Source: Flavobacteriia bacterium (GTDB lineage Bacteria > Bacteroidota > Bacteroidia > Flavobacteriales_D > Crocinitomicaceae). Taken from it: a stretch of 61,597 nucleotides of DNA. Position numbers and translations under genes: made by a program. The notes under the pieces are model-generated. The model was not told the origin of the DNA. It was given only the letters and a program-made list of their open reading frames with translations, and searched no databases. The stretch is taken from contig CANHVK010000004.1 of the NCBI GenBank assembly GCA_947464135.1, positions 1 through 61,597 of the forward strand. Reading direction: 5' to 3'. The number at the start of each line of letters is the position of its first letter. Position 1 is the stretch's first letter. Shown one piece after another: positions 30,391-41,135 of this stretch.

Positions 30391-30397
30391 TATTGTT

Positions 30398-30424
30398 AGC
30401 CGTTTTTAAAACGGCTTTTTTATT
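30398..30424 (+). terminator. Terminator of the PorE-like gene, abutting the next start codon
   Basis: AGCCGTTT (30398-30405) pairs with AAACGGCT (30409-30416) around a 3-base loop, followed by a T-rich tract to 30425. The next gene's ATG is at 30426, immediately after the tract. The placement leaves no room for a promoter or a ribosome-binding site between terminator and start. Confidence 0.8.
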
Positions 30425-30425
30425 T

Positions 30426-31505
30426 ATGCCTTTTAATAAATCAACAAATTATCTAATTAAATTTTTACATTTCGGTTTTTGGATTGCTTTATATTTAGTT
30501 CCATATTTCGATCCCAGAGGAGCACGCCCTATTTCTGCATCGAATATTTATTTTTTATTAAATCCACACATTCTTTTCAATCACTTATTATTTATAATTC
30601 TTTTTTATTCAAATTCAGAAGTTTTTGTACCAAGATTGTTACTTAGTAAACGTACTGTGGTTTATTATTTAGTAATTTTTTTCTCTGTAATAGTAATTTT
30701 GTTGGTAGCGTTTTTGATTTTTCCCTTATTTAAATTACCACACTCAGATTTTCCTAAACCTAATTTACCAAATATTGAAATACTTCATTTGCACCAAACT
30801 ATTTCCTTGGTATTCCCTTTACTTTTTATTTTACTTGTAAGTACTCTTTATCGTTTGTTAATTCATAAATACAAATTCGAGAAAAAACAAAAAGAAAAAG
30901 AAAACGAACAATTAAAAACTGAACTATCATTTTTACGTTCTCAAATTAGTCCGCATTTTATTTTCAATGCATTGAATAGTAGTATAATATTAGTTAGAAA
31001 GCAAAGTGAAAAAGCTGAGGAATCTCTCATTAAATTAGCATCATTAATGAGGTATATGCTTTATGAATCTGATAATGAAAAAATAGCAATTGAAGATGAA
31101 ATAGAGTACATCGAAAACTTTATTGATTTACAAATCATTCGTTTTGAAAAGTCAATTAAAATAAATAAAAAGATTGTATTCGACGAGACTTATTCATCTG
31201 ACTTTATCGAATCAATGCTTTTAATTCCATTTATTGAAAATGCTTTTAAACATGGTTCTTTAGTTTTGAAAGAGCCTGAAATTCAAATTGAAATAAGCAT
31301 TGAAAATAATATTCTGATTTTAAGAACAAAAAATAAATTTTCAACTAAAACCAATATTCATGGAGAAACTTCTAAAAATCATGGAATCGGTTTGTCAAAT
31401 GTGAAAAGAAGATTAGAATTGTTATATCCAAATAGGCATGAATTAAAATTGGATAAGGTTGGCGAATATTTTAATGTATATTTATCAATTCAAATAAATA
31501 AATGA
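30426..31505 (+). CDS. LytS/YpdA-type sensor histidine kinase
   Basis: A 359-residue histidine kinase of the LytS family (His_kinase domain) with four TM segments: about residues 15-28, 45-62, 78-99 and 125-143. The H box is LRSQISPHFIFNALN with H177, and the C-terminal ATPase carries the N box (IPFIENAFKHG) and GIGLSNVKRRLELLYP. There is no periplasmic sensor domain, so it likely senses membrane or turgor-type signals, or a small ligand within the membrane. It overlaps the LytTR regulator by 4 bases (ATGA), a clear two-component pair. The ATG at 30426 was preferred over the TTG at 30393, which lies ahead of the terminator hairpin. Confidence 0.9.
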   Translation: MPFNKSTNYLIKFLHFGFWIALYLVPYFDPRGARPISASNIYFLLNPHILFNHLLFIILFYSNSEVFVPRLLLSKRTVVYYLVIFFSVIVILLVAFLIFPLFKLPHSDFPKPNLPNIEILHLHQTISLVFPLLFILLVSTLYRLLIHKYKFEKKQKEKENEQLKTELSFLRSQISPHFIFNALNSSIILVRKQSEKAEESLIKLASLMRYMLYESDNEKIAIEDEIEYIENFIDLQIIRFEKSIKINKKIVFDETYSSDFIESMLLIPFIENAFKHGSLVLKEPEIQIEISIENNILILRTKNKFSTKTNIHGETSKNHGIGLSNVKRRLELLYPNRHELKLDKVGEYFNVYLSIQINK

Positions 31506-32230
31506 TTCGCTGTATTTGCATAGATGATGAGCCTTTAGCGCTAGAAATGATGGAGGATTTTATTCGTAAAGTTCCTTTTCTTAATCTTGTCGCATCATGT
31601 AATAATGCTATCGAGGCATATGAAATACTGAATTCTAATCAAATTGATTTACTTTTTGTAGATGTAGAAATGCCTGAAATTAATGGTGTTCAGTTTGTTC
31701 AATCCCTTAAAAATCGACCCTTTATTATATTTTCAACAGCATATAAAAAATATGCTATTGAAGGATTTGAATTAGATGTAATTGATTTTTTAGTTAAACC
31801 TTTTTCTTTTGATCGTTTTTATAAAAGTGTTTTGAAGGTGAAGGAAACTTATAATCTAATTCATAACTCTACACCAACAACATTGAAACAATTACCACCT
31901 GATTATTTGTTTGTTAATGCAGATTATAGTTTGGTGAAAGTCATAATTCCTGAAATTTCTTTTATTGAAGGATTGAAAGATTATATTAAAATTTATTTAT
32001 CTGGCCAACAAAAACCTATTGTAACTCGTATGAGTATGAAAACAATAGAGGAGAGACTTAATTTGTTAGGGTTTATTCGAATTCATAAGTCTTACATTGT
32101 TAATCTTGGAAAAATCACTTCCATTAAGAAAACGCGATTATTCGTTCATGATACAGAGATCTTTATTGGAGATAATTACAAAGATCCTTTGTTTAAAGCT
32201 TTAGGATTAGATATTCCTGAAGAAAATTAA
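31502..32230 (+). CDS. LytTR-family response regulator
   Basis: Two-component response regulator, 242 residues, partner of the LytS-type kinase. The receiver domain (about 1-118) has acidic residues D8/D9, phospho-acceptor D54 in LLFVDVEMPEING and K99 in FLVKPFSF. The LytTR DNA-binding domain (about 145-240) has the family pattern ISFIEGLKDYIKIYL, then FIRIHKSYIVNLGKI. Regulons of this family are often adjacent; here the PqqD/ATP-grasp cluster starts 121 bases downstream on the same strand, which makes it a candidate target or co-transcribed unit (inference). Confidence 0.93.
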   Translation: MIRCICIDDEPLALEMMEDFIRKVPFLNLVASCNNAIEAYEILNSNQIDLLFVDVEMPEINGVQFVQSLKNRPFIIFSTAYKKYAIEGFELDVIDFLVKPFSFDRFYKSVLKVKETYNLIHNSTPTTLKQLPPDYLFVNADYSLVKVIIPEISFIEGLKDYIKIYLSGQQKPIVTRMSMKTIEERLNLLGFIRIHKSYIVNLGKITSIKKTRLFVHDTEIFIGDNYKDPLFKALGLDIPEEN

Positions 32231-32351: not shown

Positions 32352-32597
32352 ATGAAAATAAAATCAAATTTAGCAGTGAGTGACAGCGGATTTATCTTTA
32401 ATCCATCGAATGGTGACTCTTTCTCAACAAATACTGTTGGTGCAGATATTATTTTACTCTTAAAATCGGGTAAATCATTTGAGGAAATTAAAAAAGAAAT
32501 TGGTAATAAATACGAAGTGGATGATATTCTATTTGAAAAAGATTTTCATGATTTTGTATCACAGTTACAAGACTATTATTTAGTAAGCAATGACTAA
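32352..32597 (+). CDS. PqqD-family small protein (RRE-like)
   Basis: An 81-residue protein with the PqqD fold pattern: an N-terminal beta hairpin (GFIFNPSNGDSFSTNTVGADI), then helices with SFEEIKKEIGNKY and a C-terminal helix (VSQLQDYYLV). PqqD proteins bind precursor peptides (RiPP recognition element) and hand them to a modifying enzyme. The stop overlaps the ATP-grasp start by 8 bases, so it is translationally coupled to it. No precursor peptide was seen beside it. Alternatively it could bind the ATP-grasp enzyme as a regulatory subunit. Confidence 0.7.
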   Translation: MKIKSNLAVSDSGFIFNPSNGDSFSTNTVGADIILLLKSGKSFEEIKKEIGNKYEVDDILFEKDFHDFVSQLQDYYLVSND

Positions 32598-33648
32598 TCA
32601 ATCAACTAAAAGAAAATTGACTGTAGCCGTTACAGGGTTAAATGCAGTTGACAGTCCTGGTCCTGGAGTTGCTGTTATACGAGGCATTCGTGATTGTGAA
32701 GATTTTGACGTGCGTATTATTGGATTGTCATATGAATCACTTGAGCCAGGAATTTATATGGAAGGAATTGCTGATAAAGTATATCAAATACCTTACCCTG
32801 CAGCAGGTTCTGAATCGCTTCTTGGAAGAATTGAATACATTCATGCCATTGAAAAAATCGATGTGATTATTCCCAATTTTGATGCCGAATTACATAATTT
32901 CATTAAGATATCAGATCGTCTTAAAGCGATGGGAATAGGAACGTTTTTGCCTTCATTAGAACAATTTGAAGCAAGAGATAAAATCAATCTTTTTAAGTTT
33001 GGTGAAAAGCATGATTTATTAGTTCCAAGAGATAAAACGATTTATGATTTATCTGAATTACCCCAAGTTGCTAAAGATTTTGGTTATCCAATCGTAGTTA
33101 AAGGGAAGTACTATGAAGCAACCATAGCTTATACATTGGAGCAAGCACAAAAAGCTTTTCATAAGTTAAATGCAAAATGGGGTTTACCAATAATCGTTCA
33201 GGAATTTATTACTGGAACAGAAGTAAATGTAGCCGCATTAGGAGATGGAGAAGGAAACACGATTAGTGCTGTTCCGATGCGAAAGTTGTTTATCACAGAT
33301 AAAGGAAAAGCTTGGGCTGGTATTACAATCGAAGAGAATAAACTAATTGATTTATCAAAAAAATTCATCTCTGCAACAAAGTGGAGAGGAGGATTTGAAA
33401 TAGAGATTATGCTTACGCAAGATGGTAAACCATATATTATGGAAGTGAATCCCCGTTTTCCTGCTTGGATTTATCTTACAGTTGGTGCAGGTCAAAATCA
33501 ACCTGCTTCATTAGTGAAAATGGCATTGGGTCAAAAATTAGAACCTTTTACATCCTATGAAGTTGGTAAACTTTTTATTCGTTATGCTTGGGATTTAATC
33601 ACAGATGTATCTGAATTTCAAAAAATTTCAGCTTTCGGAGAGTTATAA
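32590..33648 (+). CDS. ATP-grasp carboxylate-amine ligase
   Basis: A 352-residue ligase of the ATP-grasp superfamily, most like the carbamoyl-phosphate synthase large-subunit module. The N-terminal Rossmann-like domain reads VAVTGLNAVDSPGPGVAVIRG. The ATP-grasp domain spans about residues 125-320, with YPIVVKGKYYEA (adenine/phosphate lysine), PIIVQEFITGTEVNV, and MEVNPRFPAWIY (E285 and N287 are the Mg ligands). It would activate a carboxylate as acyl phosphate and join it to an amine; substrate unknown. It is the second gene of the PqqD cluster and overlaps the first. Confidence 0.88.
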   Translation: MTNQSTKRKLTVAVTGLNAVDSPGPGVAVIRGIRDCEDFDVRIIGLSYESLEPGIYMEGIADKVYQIPYPAAGSESLLGRIEYIHAIEKIDVIIPNFDAELHNFIKISDRLKAMGIGTFLPSLEQFEARDKINLFKFGEKHDLLVPRDKTIYDLSELPQVAKDFGYPIVVKGKYYEATIAYTLEQAQKAFHKLNAKWGLPIIVQEFITGTEVNVAALGDGEGNTISAVPMRKLFITDKGKAWAGITIEENKLIDLSKKFISATKWRGGFEIEIMLTQDGKPYIMEVNPRFPAWIYLTVGAGQNQPASLVKMALGQKLEPFTSYEVGKLFIRYAWDLITDVSEFQKISAFGEL

Positions 33649-33702
33649 AATATAAATTATTAAACAAACCTTCCCTATAAGTCACACCGTTTAAAGGTAT
33701 CC

Positions 33703-33720
33703 GACTGAGCGAAGTCGAAG
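33703..33720. repeat. Dispersed Bacteroidota intergenic palindrome
   Basis: GACTGAGCGAAGTCGAAG, with a 4-bp GACT/AGTC inverted pair and an overlapping CGAAGTCG-type core, sits in the 90-base gap between the ATP-grasp and decarboxylase genes. I know the same core (GAGCGAAGTCGAAG) as a common short dispersed repeat in Bacteroidota genomes. It is GC-rich against its surroundings and does not look like a terminator, as no T-run follows. Confidence 0.5.
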
Positions 33721-33738
33721 TAACTAAAAATTAAAATT

Positions 33739-35103
33739 ATGAGCACTGAAAAATTAAAATATGAAAGACCTGCGATTCGCAAGATGAATACAGGATTAAT
33801 GAACAAGTTTGGAACGAGAACTGAATATGCCCCTTTTACGCACATTGATGGTGTTTCTGTTAAAGAACTAATATCTAACTATGGATCGCCTTGTTTTGTC
33901 ATTTCTGAAAGAACTATAAGGAGGACTTATCAAAATGCAGTGAGAGCCTTTAAAACACGTTATCCGAAGGTTCAATTTGCTTGGAGTTATAAAACAAATT
34001 ATTTAGATGCAGTTTGTAATGTTTTTCACCAGGAAGGTTCTTGGGCTGAAGTAGTTTCAATTTTTGAATATTCGAAAGCAATTGCTAATGGTGTTCCTGG
34101 AAATAAAATTCTTTTCAATGGTCCAGAGAAAACAAAAGCAGACATGACAATTGCTATAGAAAATGGTTCATACATTCACATTGATCATTTTGACGAATTA
34201 TATGATTTAATTGAAGTTACCACTGAATTAAAGAAATCAGCTAAAGTCGCAATCCGTGTGAATATGGATACGGGGGTTTATCCAATGTGGGACCGTTTTG
34301 GATTTAATTACGAATCAGGACAAGCATGGAATGCAATCAATAAAATTATGGCTTCTGAATATTTAGATTTAGTTGGTTTGCATTGTCATATCGGAACATT
34401 TATGTTGACCCCAAGTGCTTATGGAGTTGCTGCATCAAAACTTTCTGATTTGGCTGTAAATATTAAATATGTTTACAATAAAGCAATTCAATATTTAGAT
34501 TTAGGTGGAGGTTTTCCTTCTGCAAATACGTTAAGAGGTTCTTATTTACCTGGTTCGGATGTGATTCCTACAATTGATGAGTTTGCAGAAGTAATTACTT
34601 CAACGATATTGAATTACGGTTACAAAAAAGAAGAGCTTCCGTTATTAATTTTAGAAACAGGTCGTGCTTTAATTGATGATGCTGGATATTTGTTAGGGAG
34701 TGTTATTGCAAACAAACGTCTTTCAGATGGTAGAAGAGCAACAATAATGGATTTTGGTGTAAATATTTTATTTACAGCGTTTTGGTATGAGCATAAAATT
34801 ACTCCAGCGCAAGAATTTTCAACACATACGGAAGATATGGTGTTATATGGTCCACTTTGTATGAATATTGATGTGGTGCGTCAAAGTGTTACTTTACCAG
34901 CATTAAATAAAGGAGATAATGTGGTAGTTCATAAAGTGGGTGCTTACAATATGACGCAATGGATGCAGTTTATCGCAATGAGGCCAAAAGTTGTTTTGAT
35001 AGACACTAATGGAAATCATCACATAATTCGTGAAAATGAAACTGTTGATACATTGAAAGAAATGGAACGTTTACCTGAACACCTAAATACATTCGATTTA
35101 TAA
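33739..35103 (+). CDS. Fold-type III PLP-dependent decarboxylase, divergent LysA relative
   Basis: A 454-residue enzyme of the diaminopimelate/ornithine/arginine decarboxylase 2 family. K85 in SYKTN is the PLP-lysine. GLHCHIGT and LDLGGGFP bind the cofactor phosphate, and ETGRALIDDAG and C374 (GPLC) match the family. The loop after the cysteine reads CMNID where meso-diaminopimelate decarboxylases have CESGD, and the tyrosine segment reads GAYNMTQW. The substrate-binding edge has therefore changed. I infer a decarboxylase (or racemase) for another amino acid or conjugated substrate. It lies between the ATP-grasp and channel genes, 15 bases from the latter. Confidence 0.85.
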   Translation: MSTEKLKYERPAIRKMNTGLMNKFGTRTEYAPFTHIDGVSVKELISNYGSPCFVISERTIRRTYQNAVRAFKTRYPKVQFAWSYKTNYLDAVCNVFHQEGSWAEVVSIFEYSKAIANGVPGNKILFNGPEKTKADMTIAIENGSYIHIDHFDELYDLIEVTTELKKSAKVAIRVNMDTGVYPMWDRFGFNYESGQAWNAINKIMASEYLDLVGLHCHIGTFMLTPSAYGVAASKLSDLAVNIKYVYNKAIQYLDLGGGFPSANTLRGSYLPGSDVIPTIDEFAEVITSTILNYGYKKEELPLLILETGRALIDDAGYLLGSVIANKRLSDGRRATIMDFGVNILFTAFWYEHKITPAQEFSTHTEDMVLYGPLCMNIDVVRQSVTLPALNKGDNVVVHKVGAYNMTQWMQFIAMRPKVVLIDTNGNHHIIRENETVDTLKEMERLPEHLNTFDL

Positions 35104-35118
35104 CTCTAAATTCGTTTA

Positions 35119-37332
35119 ATGTTAACGTTTAAAAATATAAACCAAAGGCTATTGCATGCTATTGATTCAATCATTAATAGTTATGCAGTAGTCTTTTTTT
35201 CAAACAACCGTTTTTTTGGCATTTTGTTGCTTTTGGCTTCTTTTGTAGACCCAATAGCAGGAGGATGTGGTTTGTTGGGACTGGTTTCTGCAAATATTTT
35301 TGCTTTTGTTTTAGGTTTAAATTCTGATTTTATTCGTAAAGGATATCATGGTTATGATGCAATGCTTGTTTCTATAGGTATAGCTCATTTTTATCAGTTT
35401 AATATTACCTTGCTTATAGTAATTATTTGCGTAGGCATTTTTTCAATTTTAATAGCTTCGTTAATTCACGGAGTGCTTCATAAGTATCATTTGCCGTCTT
35501 TAAGTTTTCCGTTTTTAATTTCAATTTGGTTAGTTTTTAGTGCGATTCCATCTATGCATACCATTCAAATAAATAATGAATTACTGTATGAACTGAATGA
35601 GATTCAAAAGTCAGGAGGTTTTTCCAATATAAAATGGCTTCAATTTATTGAGAATACACAACAGGAATATCTTCATCTACCAAAAATTAGTATTGTTTAT
35701 CTTAAATCACTTTCTTCTTTATTTTTTCAGTCGAATGTGTTATCTGGTTTATTGATTGCTATTGGGTTAATTATTTATTCAAGAATTGCTTTTACCCTTT
35801 CAATTTTAGGATATACTACTGCATATTTCTTTTATCCTTTGTTAGGTGGAGATATTTCAGATTTTTATGAAAAATTCATTGGTCTTAATTTTATTTTTCA
35901 AGCGATTGCAATTGGAGGTATTTATTTAGTCCCTTCCTTATGGAGTTATCTGACAACTATTGTATTGACTCCTTTGTTAATTCTTGTTTTATTTGGGTTT
36001 AATAAGATATTATATATGATTGGATTAGCTCCTTATTCACTTCCTTTTACCGTAATTACTATTCTGTTTTTATATGTTTTAAATCATCGAACAAAAATTA
36101 AAGGCATTCATAAAGTTTTAAATCAAACCTATCAACCAGAACAAAATTTATATGGATTTTTAAATTCAAATCACAGGTTAAGGCAATTCAATTATTTTCC
36201 AATTCATTTACCAATTTGGGGTGAATGGATGGTCTCACAAGGACATGATGGTAAAATCACTCATTTAGCTGAATGGAGTAAAGCATTTGATTTCATTGTG
36301 TTGGATGATGAATTAAAATCATATCAATTACCCGGAATCGTTACAGAAGATTTTTATTGTTACAATAAACCTGTATTGGCATGTGCTGATGGATATATAG
36401 TTGCTGTTCAGGATAATATTGATGATAATGACCCAAATGAGGTGAATACCCTTCAAAATTGGGGAAATACAATCGTTATATATCACCTGGATGGTTTATA
36501 TAGTCAGGTAAGTCATTTGAAAAAGGGTTCAATAAAATATGCAGTTGGTGATTTTGTTAAACGAGGAGAAATAATTGCTTTATGCGGAAGTTCTGGTCGT
36601 TCACCTGAACCACATCTACATTTTCAATTACAGTCAGTTCCTACAATAGGAGCTAGGACACTTGATTTTCCTTTAGCTTATTACTTGTTGAGAGATAACA
36701 ATAAATTAGAATTAAAAACTTTTGATAAGCCAGTTGAAGGGCAATTTGTAAGTTCAATTGATGTGAATCCGTTGATGAGGTCTGCATATGACTTAATTCC
36801 AGGAAAAAAAATATGTTGGACAATAAATCAAAATAGTTCAACCACTTACGAAAATTGGGAAGTATTTACTGATAGCCTAAATCATTCATACATTTTCTGC
36901 CATGAATCTAAAGAAATAGCTTATTTCTACAACGATGGAAATATGATACTTTTTACAAGTTATATCGGAAATAAATCGGGATTGTTATATCATTTTTATC
37001 TTGCTAATTACAAGGTTGTTTTAGGGTTTTATAAAGGCTTAACGATAGAAGAAAAGTATCCTATGGCAACGATTTCATTAAAGTTAGTTTCTGTATTACA
37101 GGATTTTATTGCTCCTTTTTATCAGTTTGTTAAGACTTCTTTTATATTAAATTATGACGAAATTGATGATATAAATCTGACGAATAAGATTAGAATTTCT
37201 TCATCCGCAGAGATAAAAATTGCTGGAATAAAACAAAAAGCATTTAATTATAATATTTTCTTGGAGGATAATAAAATTTCAAAATTTGAAATTCGTTCCA
37301 AAAAAGGTAAAATCGAGGCAATATGCGAATAG
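35119..37332 (+). CDS. Urea-transporter-fold channel fused to M23 peptidase domain
   Basis: A 737-residue fusion. Residues about 15-345 are a two-fold repeated membrane domain of the urea transporter (UT) family: FFSNNRFFGILLL and GYHGYDAMLVSIG in repeat one, FFQSNVLSGLLIA and FIFQAIAIGG in repeat two. Residues about 375-515 are an M23 metallopeptidase domain with candidate zinc ligands H382 (ITHLAE), D391 (AFDF) and HLH at H499/H501 (PHLHFQ), plus the GxxVxxGxxIAxxGxSG segment. The last ~220 residues are unassigned. The M23 domain is expected to act in the periplasm. No urease gene is nearby, so urea need not be the substrate. It overlaps the next gene by 10 bases. Confidence 0.85.
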   Translation: MLTFKNINQRLLHAIDSIINSYAVVFFSNNRFFGILLLLASFVDPIAGGCGLLGLVSANIFAFVLGLNSDFIRKGYHGYDAMLVSIGIAHFYQFNITLLIVIICVGIFSILIASLIHGVLHKYHLPSLSFPFLISIWLVFSAIPSMHTIQINNELLYELNEIQKSGGFSNIKWLQFIENTQQEYLHLPKISIVYLKSLSSLFFQSNVLSGLLIAIGLIIYSRIAFTLSILGYTTAYFFYPLLGGDISDFYEKFIGLNFIFQAIAIGGIYLVPSLWSYLTTIVLTPLLILVLFGFNKILYMIGLAPYSLPFTVITILFLYVLNHRTKIKGIHKVLNQTYQPEQNLYGFLNSNHRLRQFNYFPIHLPIWGEWMVSQGHDGKITHLAEWSKAFDFIVLDDELKSYQLPGIVTEDFYCYNKPVLACADGYIVAVQDNIDDNDPNEVNTLQNWGNTIVIYHLDGLYSQVSHLKKGSIKYAVGDFVKRGEIIALCGSSGRSPEPHLHFQLQSVPTIGARTLDFPLAYYLLRDNNKLELKTFDKPVEGQFVSSIDVNPLMRSAYDLIPGKKICWTINQNSSTTYENWEVFTDSLNHSYIFCHESKEIAYFYNDGNMILFTSYIGNKSGLLYHFYLANYKVVLGFYKGLTIEEKYPMATISLKLVSVLQDFIAPFYQFVKTSFILNYDEIDDINLTNKIRISSSAEIKIAGIKQKAFNYNIFLEDNKISKFEIRSKKGKIEAICE

Positions 37333-38717
37333 TTCTAATTATTATATGTTTGATATTCATCAAGGTAAATGCTCAAACAAATAAGACTTTAAAAGAGTCG
37401 TATGTTGATAGTGTTTCTTATGTTTATTCAATGAAAGGAAATCACAAAGAATTAGTATCTATAGCAAATCAAGCTTTTGATTCAAAAATTGATTTTTATT
37501 ACTTGAGATATAGATTGGGTGTTTCGTATTTTAATCAAAAGAAATACCTACTCGCTATTGAACATTTTAAAAAAGCATTAGCATTTTATCCTGCAGATTT
37601 CTATACAAAAGAGTATCTATTTTATGGTAATTTATATCTAAATAATATTTCTGAAGCAAAACAAATACTTGCTAAATTTCCTTCGAATTTACAATCTAAT
37701 TATCAAAAGTTGATTGGTAAAGAAAGATTAATTAATATAGAATCAGGCTATCAAACAACAAGTTATGTTTCTTCTCAAGATACCGCTACTTTCCTAGGTC
37801 CTGATGGTCTATATGCTGAATCGGATAGGATGAAATCATTACAATATTATCAGTTGGGCGCTAATTTTCCAATTTCAAAAAAGATACAAGTTTATACAGG
37901 GCTCTCCTACGTTCAAAATAATCGAACAAGACATATTTATTCAAAGGATAATTATTATTACAATGATTATTTAAATAAAATTTTTAAAAAACAAGTTAAA
38001 ACGAAAGATACGGCTCAAGATTATAGTTTAAATCAATACCAAGCTTATCTAGGTGCAACAATTTCATTACCGAAAAAGTTCAATTTACAATTTGGTTTCC
38101 AAAACATGTATTATTCTCAAAATAAATTGGTTGCGGCTAGTGATTCGATGAAATCAACGTTGTTAGATACCCTGATTTATAATTATAGATACCAAACAAT
38201 TACCAGTTCTTTGAATAATTATGTGTCATCAATTTCACTGTCTAAATCATATTCTAATATAAACACGATTTTAAATCTTGGTTATTCACGAATTGATAAT
38301 ACTAATATTTATCAAATGGGTACTCAATTCACATATAGTCCATTGGGAAATTATAACTTAAATATTACGGGAGGATATTATATTTCAGCTGATTCTACTA
38401 AACGGAATATTCTATTCGCAAAGATTCTGGGTAAAATTTCAGATTCTTGGTGGTATGAAGTATATCATTATCAAGGAAATTTAAAGAATTATCATGAATC
38501 AAATGCTTATGTGGTTTATAATATTTCAGATGTTATTAAATCAAAGTCAGGAATAAACATTGCTTATTATTTTCATCCAAATTGGACGTTAAATATGAGG
38601 TATGACTTTTTAGTTCGATCAGCATCTTTTACTAAATATATCCCCGGTTCACAAGTGAAATTGTTGGATGATTACATTAATAATTCATTTATAATTAATT
38701 TGATATGGAAATTCTAA
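37323..38717 (+). CDS. TPR protein with outer-membrane beta-barrel (YaiO-like)
   Basis: A 464-residue protein with signal peptide (1-17, ending VNA), two to three TPR units (about 35-125) and a C-terminal beta-barrel of about 300 residues rich in alternating aromatic strands, ending IINLIWKF with a terminal Phe as in outer-membrane proteins. The pattern resembles YaiO-family barrels. Likely an outer-membrane partner of the channel/peptidase encoded just upstream (10-base overlap). Its end overlaps the next TPR gene by 13 bases. Confidence 0.75.
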   Translation: MRIVLIIICLIFIKVNAQTNKTLKESYVDSVSYVYSMKGNHKELVSIANQAFDSKIDFYYLRYRLGVSYFNQKKYLLAIEHFKKALAFYPADFYTKEYLFYGNLYLNNISEAKQILAKFPSNLQSNYQKLIGKERLINIESGYQTTSYVSSQDTATFLGPDGLYAESDRMKSLQYYQLGANFPISKKIQVYTGLSYVQNNRTRHIYSKDNYYYNDYLNKIFKKQVKTKDTAQDYSLNQYQAYLGATISLPKKFNLQFGFQNMYYSQNKLVAASDSMKSTLLDTLIYNYRYQTITSSLNNYVSSISLSKSYSNINTILNLGYSRIDNTNIYQMGTQFTYSPLGNYNLNITGGYYISADSTKRNILFAKILGKISDSWWYEVYHYQGNLKNYHESNAYVVYNISDVIKSKSGINIAYYFHPNWTLNMRYDFLVRSASFTKYIPGSQVKLLDDYINNSFIINLIWKF

Positions 38718-39325
38718 GTAAAAGAATCTTTTTTGTTTTATCATTTATTGTGTTTTCTTTTAATACTTTATCTCAATCAGATAATGCCATAAGAGACGCG
38801 TTAAAAAGGAGTTATGATGCAGAATACCAACTAAAATATGCAAGAGCAATTGAGGAATTAATGGGGGTATATGAATCTTCATCTTATGAATTAAATCTTC
38901 GTTTAGGTTGGCTATGTTACAAGAACAATAAATTTGTAGAATCTATAGCATATTATAAAAAAGCAATCATAAAAATGCCTTTGAGTATTGAAGCTAAATT
39001 GGGAATTGTATATCCTTTAGCAGCTTTAGAAAAATGGGATGAGGTTGTAAACCAATATAAATCAATATTAAAAATAGATGTATATCATGCTACTGCAAAT
39101 TATCGATTGGCATTAATTTATTACAATCGATTAGATTATGGAAACTCCTGGAAGTATTTAAAAAATTATATTAATCTATATCCTTTTGATTATGATGGAA
39201 ATAGTTTAGCAGGTTGGATTAAGTATAGTGTTGGTAAAAAGGAAGAAGCTTACGTTTTTTTCAAAAAGGCTCTTATGGTTAATCCATATGATACAAGTTT
39301 TAATAAAGTTTTAGGAATCAAATAA
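38705..39325 (+). CDS. TPR-repeat periplasmic protein (paralogue 1)
   Basis: A 206-residue protein with a signal peptide (about 1-24, ending LSQ) and about four TPR motifs, e.g. YELNLRLGWLCYKNNKFVES and ATANYRLALIYYNRLDYGNS. It is clearly related to the next gene: both share a nearly identical motif order, ALEKWDEV-type and IYYNRLDY-type segments and a final FFKKALMVNP-type repeat. Likely a scaffold protein, secreted to the periplasm or attached to the inner face of the outer membrane. Overlap with the previous gene is 13 bases. Confidence 0.8.
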   Translation: MEILSKRIFFVLSFIVFSFNTLSQSDNAIRDALKRSYDAEYQLKYARAIEELMGVYESSSYELNLRLGWLCYKNNKFVESIAYYKKAIIKMPLSIEAKLGIVYPLAALEKWDEVVNQYKSILKIDVYHATANYRLALIYYNRLDYGNSWKYLKNYINLYPFDYDGNSLAGWIKYSVGKKEEAYVFFKKALMVNPYDTSFNKVLGIK

Positions 39326-39340
39326 TTTAATTTTTTTATT

Positions 39341-39973
39341 ATGAAAAAAGTTTTAATGAATGGATTGGTTTACGGAATGTTAACTTTTACATCAAGTCTA
39401 GTTTTTGGTCAAGTTTCACAATCTGATTTAGATTTAAGGACAGCTTTTAAAAAGAGTTATGAATCAGAAGTGGGTTTAAAATATACTAAAGCGATTGAAG
39501 ATTTAATCCTTTTTGCAAATAATAATACATATGAGGTAAATATTCGCTTAGGTTATCTGAATTACCTAAATGCAAAATTTCTTCAATCTACTTCTCATTA
39601 CAAAAAATGTATTGAGCTTGCTCCTAAAAGTGTTGAAGCTCGTTTTGGATATATTAATGCCTTGGCAGCACTTGAAAAATGGGATGAAATAATTCTTCAG
39701 TATAAAGAAATTTTAAAAGTAGATGCTGGTAATGCAAAAGCCTTATATAACCTTGGCTTGATTTATTATAATCGTTTAGATTATACGAATGCTCAATCTT
39801 ATTTAAATACATACGTAGCTTTGTATCCTTTCGATTTTGATGGTGTAAATTTAATGGGTTGGATTAAATATTACATGGGTAATAAAGACGAGGCATTCGT
39901 ATATTTTAAAAGGGCTTTGCTATTAAATCCTACTTCAACCTTGTATGATAAAGTATTATCAAATAAAAAATAA
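39341..39973 (+). CDS. TPR-repeat periplasmic protein (paralogue 2)
   Basis: A 210-residue TPR protein with a signal peptide (about 1-24, ending LVFGQ) and about four TPR motifs such as YEVNIRLGYLNYLNAKFLQS and YNLGLIYYNRLDYTNAQ. It is a tandem duplicate of the preceding gene at the protein level. It lies 15 bases downstream of it and 3 bases before the SixA-like gene, so all belong to one transcript. Confidence 0.8.
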   Translation: MKKVLMNGLVYGMLTFTSSLVFGQVSQSDLDLRTAFKKSYESEVGLKYTKAIEDLILFANNNTYEVNIRLGYLNYLNAKFLQSTSHYKKCIELAPKSVEARFGYINALAALEKWDEIILQYKEILKVDAGNAKALYNLGLIYYNRLDYTNAQSYLNTYVALYPFDFDGVNLMGWIKYYMGNKDEAFVYFKRALLLNPTSTLYDKVLSNKK

Positions 39974-39976
39974 AAT

Positions 39977-40435
39977 ATGTTAACACTTTTTTTAATTCGA
40001 CATGCTGATGCTGAAATTCATTCCACTACAGGAAAAGATATCAATAGATGCCTTTCTTTAAAGGGTAAAAAACAGTGTGTCGAATTGAAAAATCGAATTG
40101 ATAACAATGATTGGAGTAATGTAGATTTTTATGTCTCCGCAAGCGAAAGAACAAAGCAAACCTTTAATCTTATTTTTCAGGACAATTTTTGTTCTTATCA
40201 TAATGAACTCTATTTAGCATCTGCTGAAAATTTATTGAGTTTTATTAATAAGTTAAATTCTCCTAAATCAATTTGTATTGTTTCTCACAATGAAGGTATT
40301 TCGGCTTTAGCTTCACTTTTAACAGGTCAGCGTATTTTAATGAATACAGCTTCGTTTTTAGAACTTCGTTTTGATTTTGAATCAACTGAATATATCTCTG
40401 CTGAAACTGCGTTGATTGATGATTTTATTTTTTGA
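39977..40435 (+). CDS. SixA-like histidine phosphatase
   Basis: A 152-residue member of the histidine phosphatase superfamily, branch 1. The RHG-type motif appears as LIRHADA at the N-terminus, and the second catalytic histidine is in IVSHNEG. SixA-type enzymes dephosphorylate phosphohistidine in phosphorelays, though small members of this superfamily have broad roles. It begins 3 bases after the second TPR paralogue, so it is probably the last gene of the cluster. It converges on and overlaps the rhomboid gene by 11 bases. Confidence 0.88.
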   Translation: MLTLFLIRHADAEIHSTTGKDINRCLSLKGKKQCVELKNRIDNNDWSNVDFYVSASERTKQTFNLIFQDNFCSYHNELYLASAENLLSFINKLNSPKSICIVSHNEGISALASLLTGQRILMNTASFLELRFDFESTEYISAETALIDDFIF

Positions 40436-41135
40436 TATACGTGTAGGTAATACTTGTGTTTGAATCTGATATATGTTGATTTCTTATATATTCTTTTTCA
40501 TAATTTTTCAGTTGATTTTCAATGTTTTCTCTAGGTATATAGCTAGGATTTTCACTAATTAATATTTTTTCTTGTTCTACATATAATAGAGCAAGTAATA
40601 CACCTGTTATTACCCCACTTAAATGACCTTGCCAAGAAATTTTTTCTTCCACAGGAAAAATACCCCACACTAAACTACCATAGGTAAGAATAATTAACAT
40701 GGATATCGCTTGATATTTCAATTGTTTTTTAATGATTCCACTGACAAATAAAAAAATGATAAGAGCGTAGATAATACTACTCATTCCAATATGGTAACTA
40801 CCTTCATTTTCAGCAATCAACCAAGTGAGAAATCCGCTTATAAACCAACTCAAAAAGAAAATTTTGTAAGCTATTTTAGGATAAAAGAAGAATAGTGTAA
40901 CTAACGTTAAAAATATCGGAATAGAATTATTTATGATATGATTTATGTCTGTTTTTGAATGGAGTAGGGGGGAGAAAATCACCCCAAAAACACCTGATAA
41001 TGTTCTTGGTAAAATTCCCAATCGTGTTAGCTCAATAGGAGAAACAAATTCACCCCAATATACGATCCACATTAAAGAAATTAAAAGGAAAGGAATAATA
41101 ACTATCTCGTAATTAATACTAATTTTTGATTTCAT
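40425..41135 (-). CDS. Rhomboid-family intramembrane serine protease
   Basis: A 236-residue polytopic protein with about six membrane segments. Catalytic S119 lies in HIGMSS (the family GxSx) and H171 in WQGHLSG. The conserved loop with LLHSKTDINHIINN matches the rhomboid first-loop histidine region. It cleaves transmembrane substrates; the target is unknown. The C-terminal ~40 residues are polar. It is transcribed alone on the minus strand, with no operon partner within 100 bases. Confidence 0.88.
   Translation of the reverse strand: MKSKISINYEIVIIPFLLISLMWIVYWGEFVSPIELTRLGILPRTLSGVFGVIFSPLLHSKTDINHIINNSIPIFLTLVTLFFFYPKIAYKIFFLSWFISGFLTWLIAENEGSYHIGMSSIIYALIIFLFVSGIIKKQLKYQAISMLIILTYGSLVWGIFPVEEKISWQGHLSGVITGVLLALLYVEQEKILISENPSYIPRENIENQLKNYEKEYIRNQHISDSNTSITYTYIKK

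Follow-up and report, generated by a model that had tools for sequence, protein, structure and literature searches.

At positions 32352-40435 of a 61,597-nucleotide stretch (the window) of contig CANHVK010000004.1, from a Bacteroidota genome assembly (GCA_947464135.1; 84% complete, 2.3 Mb, 104 contigs), a run of eight plus-strand genes extends from a PqqD-like protein to a SixA-like phosphatase. A preliminary description, made from the sequence of the window, had read the run as a possible nine-kilobase system that looked like a route to ligate, decarboxylate and export a small amide or amine. All eight genes are present at the positions claimed for them and their overlaps of 8, 10 and 13 bases are borne out by the gene coordinates, while the measured span is 8.1 kb. 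With families assigned by Pfam and NCBIfam, and with a regulatory gene pair that precedes the run, the region reads as follows:

30393..32230, plus strand: LytS-type kinase and LytTR regulator (Pfam)
32352..32597, plus strand: PqqD-like protein of the RiPP recognition element (RRE) type, 81 aa, core gene 1 (Pfam PqqD, 33.6 bits)
32590..33648, plus strand: ATP-grasp ligase, 352 aa, core gene 2 (ATP-grasp_3, 44 bits; ATPgrasp_Ter, 47 bits)
33739..35103, plus strand: pyridoxal phosphate (PLP) decarboxylase with alanine-racemase fold, 454 aa, core gene 3 (family of Orn/DAP/Arg decarboxylases; DAP, diaminopimelate)
35119..37332, plus strand: UT channel with M23 peptidase and C-terminal all-beta domain, core gene 4 (Pfam UT, 186 bits; Peptidase_M23, 57 bits)
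37323..38717, plus strand: predicted TPR and barrel outer-membrane protein with signal peptide, 464 aa, core gene 5 (AlphaFold)
38705..39325, plus strand: secreted TPR protein, 206 aa, core gene 6 (TPR_2, 33 bits)
39341..39973, plus strand: second copy of the TPR protein, 210 aa, lineage-specific (adjacent pair seen in few loci)
39977..40435, plus strand: SixA-like histidine phosphatase, 152 aa, outside the conserved unit (sixA, 34.9 bits; cut-off 74.5)

Besides the overlaps, the genes are separated by 15, 15 and 3 bases and by a single long gap of 90 bases (33649-33738).

The first six genes are the conserved part of this run. In an evenly drawn sample of 396 Bacteroidota genomes, searches for the ATP-grasp enzyme (E<=1e-40) and for the decarboxylase (E<=1e-100) each match 34 genomes, the two sets are identical, and in 34 of 34 a UT domain adjoins the decarboxylase, a coincidence far beyond chance. 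Among 80 loci collected by a decarboxylase search of genome contigs, with partners scored by tblastn, the ATP-grasp gene accompanies the decarboxylase in 78, the UT-M23 gene in 76 and the PqqD gene in 74. The order is common to them, with the PqqD gene upstream of the ATP-grasp gene where it is matched and the TPR-barrel gene and then the TPR gene following UT-M23, the latter downstream of the barrel in most. The gene order recurs in about 75 other contigs, which is the conservation that the preliminary description had proposed as support for one system. Automatic gene calling returned the canonical six-gene order at 50 of the 70 loci with enough flank, and many of the exceptions are explained by PqqD alone being missed, through the overlap filter used in gene calling, or by a barrel sequence so divergent that the profile does not detect it. 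Gaps between core genes across the loci are mostly of few bases, and the UT-M23/barrel and barrel/TPR overlaps recur across lineages with about 13-19 bases. The distance matrices of ATP-grasp, decarboxylase, UT-M23 and TPR proteins correlate with r = 0.73-0.87, against permutation maxima of <=0.23 (500 permutations each), as is expected from co-inheritance.

Two metagenome-assembled genomes (L040/G453 and L041/G452; further loci L192-L201), in which the decarboxylase stands alone and the operon is scattered, are informative in this respect. Both keep the ATP-grasp enzyme (70-71% identity), UT-M23 (39-41%), the TPR-barrel (E 9e-53 and 7e-61) and the PqqD protein (E about 1e-31). Every one of these genes lies on a contig of its own, and no other member of the cassette, including the small TPR gene, turned up next to any of the five scattered genes. 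That the operon has been split without loss of five members argues for a joint function over a passive neighbourhood, although the scattering counts as one event because the two genomes may be close relatives. The pattern of homologues that are scattered and never adjacent, by which the preliminary description would have given up the system, was not encountered, and even the scattered operons retain all genes tested for. Judged by order, co-occurrence and co-divergence, the conserved genes are one co-inherited functional system, of which the ligase, altered decarboxylase and envelope components named in the preliminary description are supported.

The best match of the PqqD-like protein profile in the PDB is the lasso-peptide RRE TbiB1 (52 bits, E 4e-13), and TfuB1 is matched as well. 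The ATP-grasp protein has 46 residues invariant across the phylum and only distant relatives among solved structures (a sequence match of 28 bits to 2pn1 and a profile match to the carbamoyl-phosphate-synthase type), so that no substrates can be deduced from them. As already noted in the preliminary description, no precursor peptide accompanies these genes: at about 80 loci there is no conserved small open reading frame within 2.5 kb of the cassette, and clustering of small frames from gaps and flanks yielded for the most part PqqD shadows or PqqD copies that had escaped the filter, with nothing shared across lineages. Neither is an acyl carrier protein with a phosphopantetheine Ser apparent, as the small protein is PqqD/RRE-like and no extra small gene is conserved.

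The decarboxylase is altered, as had been claimed, but is closest to decarboxylases of conjugated amino acids and not to LysA. It scores 216 bits with the lysA model (cut-off 298) and 229.6 bits with the N-citrylornithine decarboxylase model NF041039 (cut-off 500), and its nearest PDB entry is the N-citrylornithine decarboxylase 7kh2 (FslC; 200 bits), followed by the DAP decarboxylase of M. jannaschii (165) and BtrK (98). FigC, SbnH, AcsE, MccE and BtrK belong to one decarboxylase clade, and in FigC both Arg343 of DAP decarboxylase and the Asp residues by which free basic amino acids are bound are replaced (PMC7857480). In our tree a branch with a Shimodaira-Hasegawa-like approximate likelihood-ratio (SH-aLRT) support of 100 divides LysA from the cassette enzymes, which form their own clade, while FslC, on a very long branch, has no firm position. 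The cassette enzymes are marked by the motifs LFTxFWY, GPLCMNID and GAYNxTQWxQFI; in 24 of 24 aligned members LFTxFWY replaces RPxxY and sequences of the CMNI/CMQI types replace CES/CET after the catalytic Cys. The equivalent of R343 of DAP decarboxylase is absent, Met stands at the position of FigC M355, and the citrate-contacting FigC residues H357 and R387 are Ile and Gln. Invariant are the PLP lysine K85, the Gly-rich loop G256-G258, E306/R309 of ExGR, the catalytic C374, and Y403 of GAY. By these residues the cassette decarboxylase is not LysA and has kept its catalytic residues, and the near constancy of the pocket motifs GPLCMNID and GAYNxTQWxQFI throughout the phylum suggests a single conserved, non-citrate substrate. 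A separate LysA above the cut-off occurs in 13 of the 23 cassette genomes tested and in none of the window's genus (G000, G001, G007, G010, G012), 99-100% complete genomes included; the genus may be auxotrophic for lysine, may use some other enzyme, or may give the cassette decarboxylase a second role.

The fusion of a channel with a peptidase is confirmed, with the UT domain at about residues 15-320, M23 at 365-505 and the all-beta domain at 510-737. The AlphaFold model has a mean predicted local distance difference test score (pLDDT) of 91, and Foldseek aligns its UT part to 3k3g with a TM-score of 0.83 and recovers the M23 domain too. The C-terminal all-beta domain (36646-37329) belongs to no Pfam family and was not matched separately among the PDB structures listed by Foldseek. 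Zinc ligands and catalytic histidine of M23 (H382, D391, H466, H499, H501) are invariant in 52 of 52 sequences, by which the active site is intact. In the same 52 sequences the phenylalanine slots F27 and F190 of the pore are kept. Next to them lie Q24 and E187 of dvUT, which we take to be the urea-binding Gln/Glu pair; the Q24 position is Gln in 31 of the 52 and the E187 position is mostly Ala, Ser or Gly and never Glu, so that the pore, as judged from the alignment, is without one key urea-binding residue.

What changes with respect to the preliminary description, besides this loss, is the compartment of the peptidase. Averaged over the 52 homologues, the N-terminus has a charge of +1.6, the long middle loop of -2.0 and the stretch past the last transmembrane helix of +2.2, which under the positive-inside rule would place both termini and M23 in the cytoplasm. 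The M23/C-terminal part contains 1.31 cysteines per 100 residues and none of 83 sequences is without one, as compared to about 0.36 per 100 residues in the exported barrel and TPR proteins, many of which are cysteine-free; the UT-M23 protein has no signal peptide. The M23 and C-terminal domains are therefore most likely cytoplasmic, and M23 would thus not be an ordinary cell-wall peptidase. At two loci in single-contig assemblies the UT-M23 frame is interrupted by frameshifts (L143:9944-12198 in G063; L039:11466-13609); as a sign of separate proteins these splits were set aside, since they could be sequencing errors, and they were left out of the topology argument because a natural split and a sequencing error are indistinguishable. 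Nearly all remaining UT genes of the sample encode about 300 aa, too short for M23, and lie in genomes without the cassette; such stand-alone genes (G262, G266, G322, G165, G351, G188, G242, G373, G381, G254) are presumably ordinary urea channels.

For the outer membrane, gene 5 is predicted to encode a periplasmic TPR part, which is short, followed by a barrel of 14 strands (AlphaFold, mean pLDDT 92), with weak Foldseek matches to FadL, OmpG and BcsC. Genes 5 and 6 carry export signals, and the TPR proteins have signal-peptide-like N-termini. In some distant lineages (L147, L148, L150, L158) the TPR gene leads the pair and the next gene encodes a secreted protein of roughly 270 aa that looks like a barrel.

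The last two genes of the run are local extras, by which the eight-gene system becomes a six-gene unit. The SixA-like gene, the end of which is overlapped at the 3' border of the cluster by a minus-strand gene for a rhomboid-family protein (40428-41135), occurs in 1 of 80 loci and was rejected as a core member, as was the second TPR gene, a copy of the first that adjoins it in the genus-level loci L032-L036 and few others. Elsewhere, the PqqD gene is immediately preceded in 19 loci by a gene for a GNAT acetyltransferase (e.g. L050:8060-8563), which may acetylate the product in those lineages, and an AHSA1/START-like gene is located 3' of the cassette in 6 loci (e.g. L067:15411-15827). One 3.74-Mb contig (G180) carries the cassette at both ends (L153, L154), with one UT-M23 frame broken; these are probably the unmerged ends of a circular assembly. 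The LytS/LytTR pair, put forward as a possible control of the cluster, is present in the window's genus and in about a quarter of all loci (response regulator in 22-23 and histidine kinase in 16-17 of about 80, mostly immediately upstream of the cassette); it is not universal and possibly a regulator in some lineages. The palindrome CGACTGAGCGAAGTCG in the 90-base gap (33702-33717), which the preliminary description had mentioned, has one copy in the window and is found in no relative's locus, not even in a 97%-identical one; being restricted to this genome, it is placed outside the system and rejected as a regulator, and is probably a mobile REP-like (repetitive extragenic palindromic) element. 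A scan for sigma-70 promoters and terminators gave results at chance level, and anti-phage defence was rejected with no match by PADLOC.

How could these components work together? In the reading that we tentatively prefer, possible although somewhat short of an even chance, the six genes are a biosynthesis-and-export unit. In the cytoplasm, the ATP-grasp enzyme would couple an amino acid to an acceptor while the PqqD-like RRE presents the substrate; the coupling would have to be through the side chain, because both alpha-amine and alpha-carboxylate must be free for the PLP chemistry. The decarboxylase would then strip the free alpha-carboxylate of the conjugate and leave an amine tail, as do N-citrylornithine decarboxylase and BtrK. 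Side-chain ligation followed by decarboxylation is inferred here by analogy with BtrI/BtrJ/BtrK and FslC. M23, positioned on the cytoplasmic side where the UT-like pore opens, would cleave the conjugate, the small product released would cross the inner membrane by the pore, and the TPR protein together with the TPR-barrel would carry it over the outer membrane. By sequence, the synthesis genes are without export signals, the peptidase of the inner-membrane pore probably faces the cytoplasm and an outer-membrane pair completes the system. In its most specific form, that throughout the phylum a repurposed urea channel is fed by an M23 peptidase at its cytoplasmic mouth, which clips an RRE-presented, ligated and decarboxylated conjugate, the proposal is rather unlikely.

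Several points weigh against the biosynthesis-and-export unit. As no conserved precursor lies nearby, a peptide carrier is unproven, and the PqqD-like protein may act otherwise than as a peptide-presenting RRE. For the topology, the evidence is the bias of charges and the frequency of cysteines. Known UT pores are narrow, about 2-3 A (PMC10541013), so that the product would need to be very small, and one with an amine tail would be charged. In the window's genus the decarboxylase may have a dual role, since no separate LysA passed the cut-off there.

The outer-membrane pair can also be seen in the light of envelope decoration: the amine made by ATP-grasp enzyme and decarboxylase would not be released but become part of a glycan, lipid or protein of the surface, with TPR protein and barrel bringing it to the outer membrane in the manner of polysaccharide secretion. 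The TPR and barrel layout does resemble that of exopolysaccharide secretins, with BcsC among the Foldseek matches, there are two or more TPR proteins, and the Foldseek relatives of M23 act on the cell wall; yet across the loci glycosyltransferases, flippases and lipid enzymes are not among the conserved genes of the cassette and M23 appears cytoplasmic. Decoration is a rather unlikely reading. A cytoplasmic M23 would, on the other hand, suit the maturation protease of a ribosomally synthesized and post-translationally modified peptide (RiPP), with PqqD as the leader-binding RRE, ATP-grasp and decarboxylase modifying a precursor encoded elsewhere and M23 removing the leader. The match of the PqqD profile to the lasso RREs TbiB1 and TfuB1 and the work of MccE, a clade-mate of FslC, in microcin C7 synthesis (PMC7857480) point in this direction, but with no conserved small frame near the cassette at about 80 loci, core gaps of mostly few bases and no ABC exporter in the cassette a RiPP pathway is unlikely.

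Members of the UT family are channels that work in either direction, and the barrel resembles the uptake proteins FadL and OmpG. With F27 and F190 kept, barrel and pore might import a small amide or urea analogue for use by the cytoplasmic enzymes, which is quite unlikely considering that ATP-grasp ligation is synthetic chemistry, that the E187 position is never Glu and that Q24 is variable. A plain lysine-biosynthesis enzyme in a loose neighbourhood, for which the 216 bits with the lysA model and the missing separate LysA in the window's genus could be quoted, is most improbable and was rejected: the score is below 298, the enzymes form their own clade, the DAP-binding Arg and CES are missing in every cassette member examined, 13 of 23 genomes have a true LysA in addition, and the decarboxylase co-occurs exactly with ATP-grasp and UT.

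With respect to significance, the unit is present in about 9% of the sampled Bacteroidota genomes, in several classes and in an all-or-nothing manner, and should consequently make or handle something valuable to its hosts. It points to a conserved metabolite, to a decarboxylase with a new substrate, to an unexpected compartment for a peptidase family and to the reuse of the urea-channel fold. Literature searches found no named pathway with this gene set, as the preliminary description had maintained, although novelty is provisional with most subscription papers outside the search; Iyer et al. reportedly treated amidoligase neighbourhoods in a closely related study of 2009.

Known systems share single components or parts of the chemistry with the cassette. 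The lasso RRE/PqqD proteins TbiB1 and TfuB1 match the PqqD-like protein over the RRE fold, while genes for a lasso cyclase, a lasso leader peptidase and a precursor are absent from the cassette. Like the secretins BcsC and PgaA, gene 5 combines periplasmic TPR with an outer-membrane barrel, but has 14 strands, a short TPR part and a weak structural match, and no polysaccharide synthase accompanies it. The UT urea channels dvUT and UT-B have the fold, the phenylalanine slots and a charge pattern that fits N-in/C-in in common with the cassette UT, which differs by the missing E187 equivalent in the 52 sequences, the variable Q24 and the fusion to M23 and the C-terminal beta domain. FslC and FigC of rhizoferrin synthesis share GPxCM and GAYN with the cassette decarboxylase as well as the lack of Asp/Arg residues that bind free diamino acids, whereas the cassette has Ile and Gln for H357 and R387 and an ATP-grasp enzyme in place of the NIS synthetase; N-citrylornithine decarboxylase acts on an already-conjugated amino acid (PMC7857480). 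The butirosin pathway has no counterpart of UT-M23 and barrel, and the cassette in turn has a PqqD-like RRE where butirosin synthesis uses an acyl carrier protein, and no aminoglycoside genes. In butirosin synthesis BtrI is the carrier and BtrJ the ATP-grasp ligase, and with BtrK the three resemble the first genes of the cassette as a small carrier-like protein, an ATP-grasp ligase and a LysA-like decarboxylase that acts on an attached amino acid.

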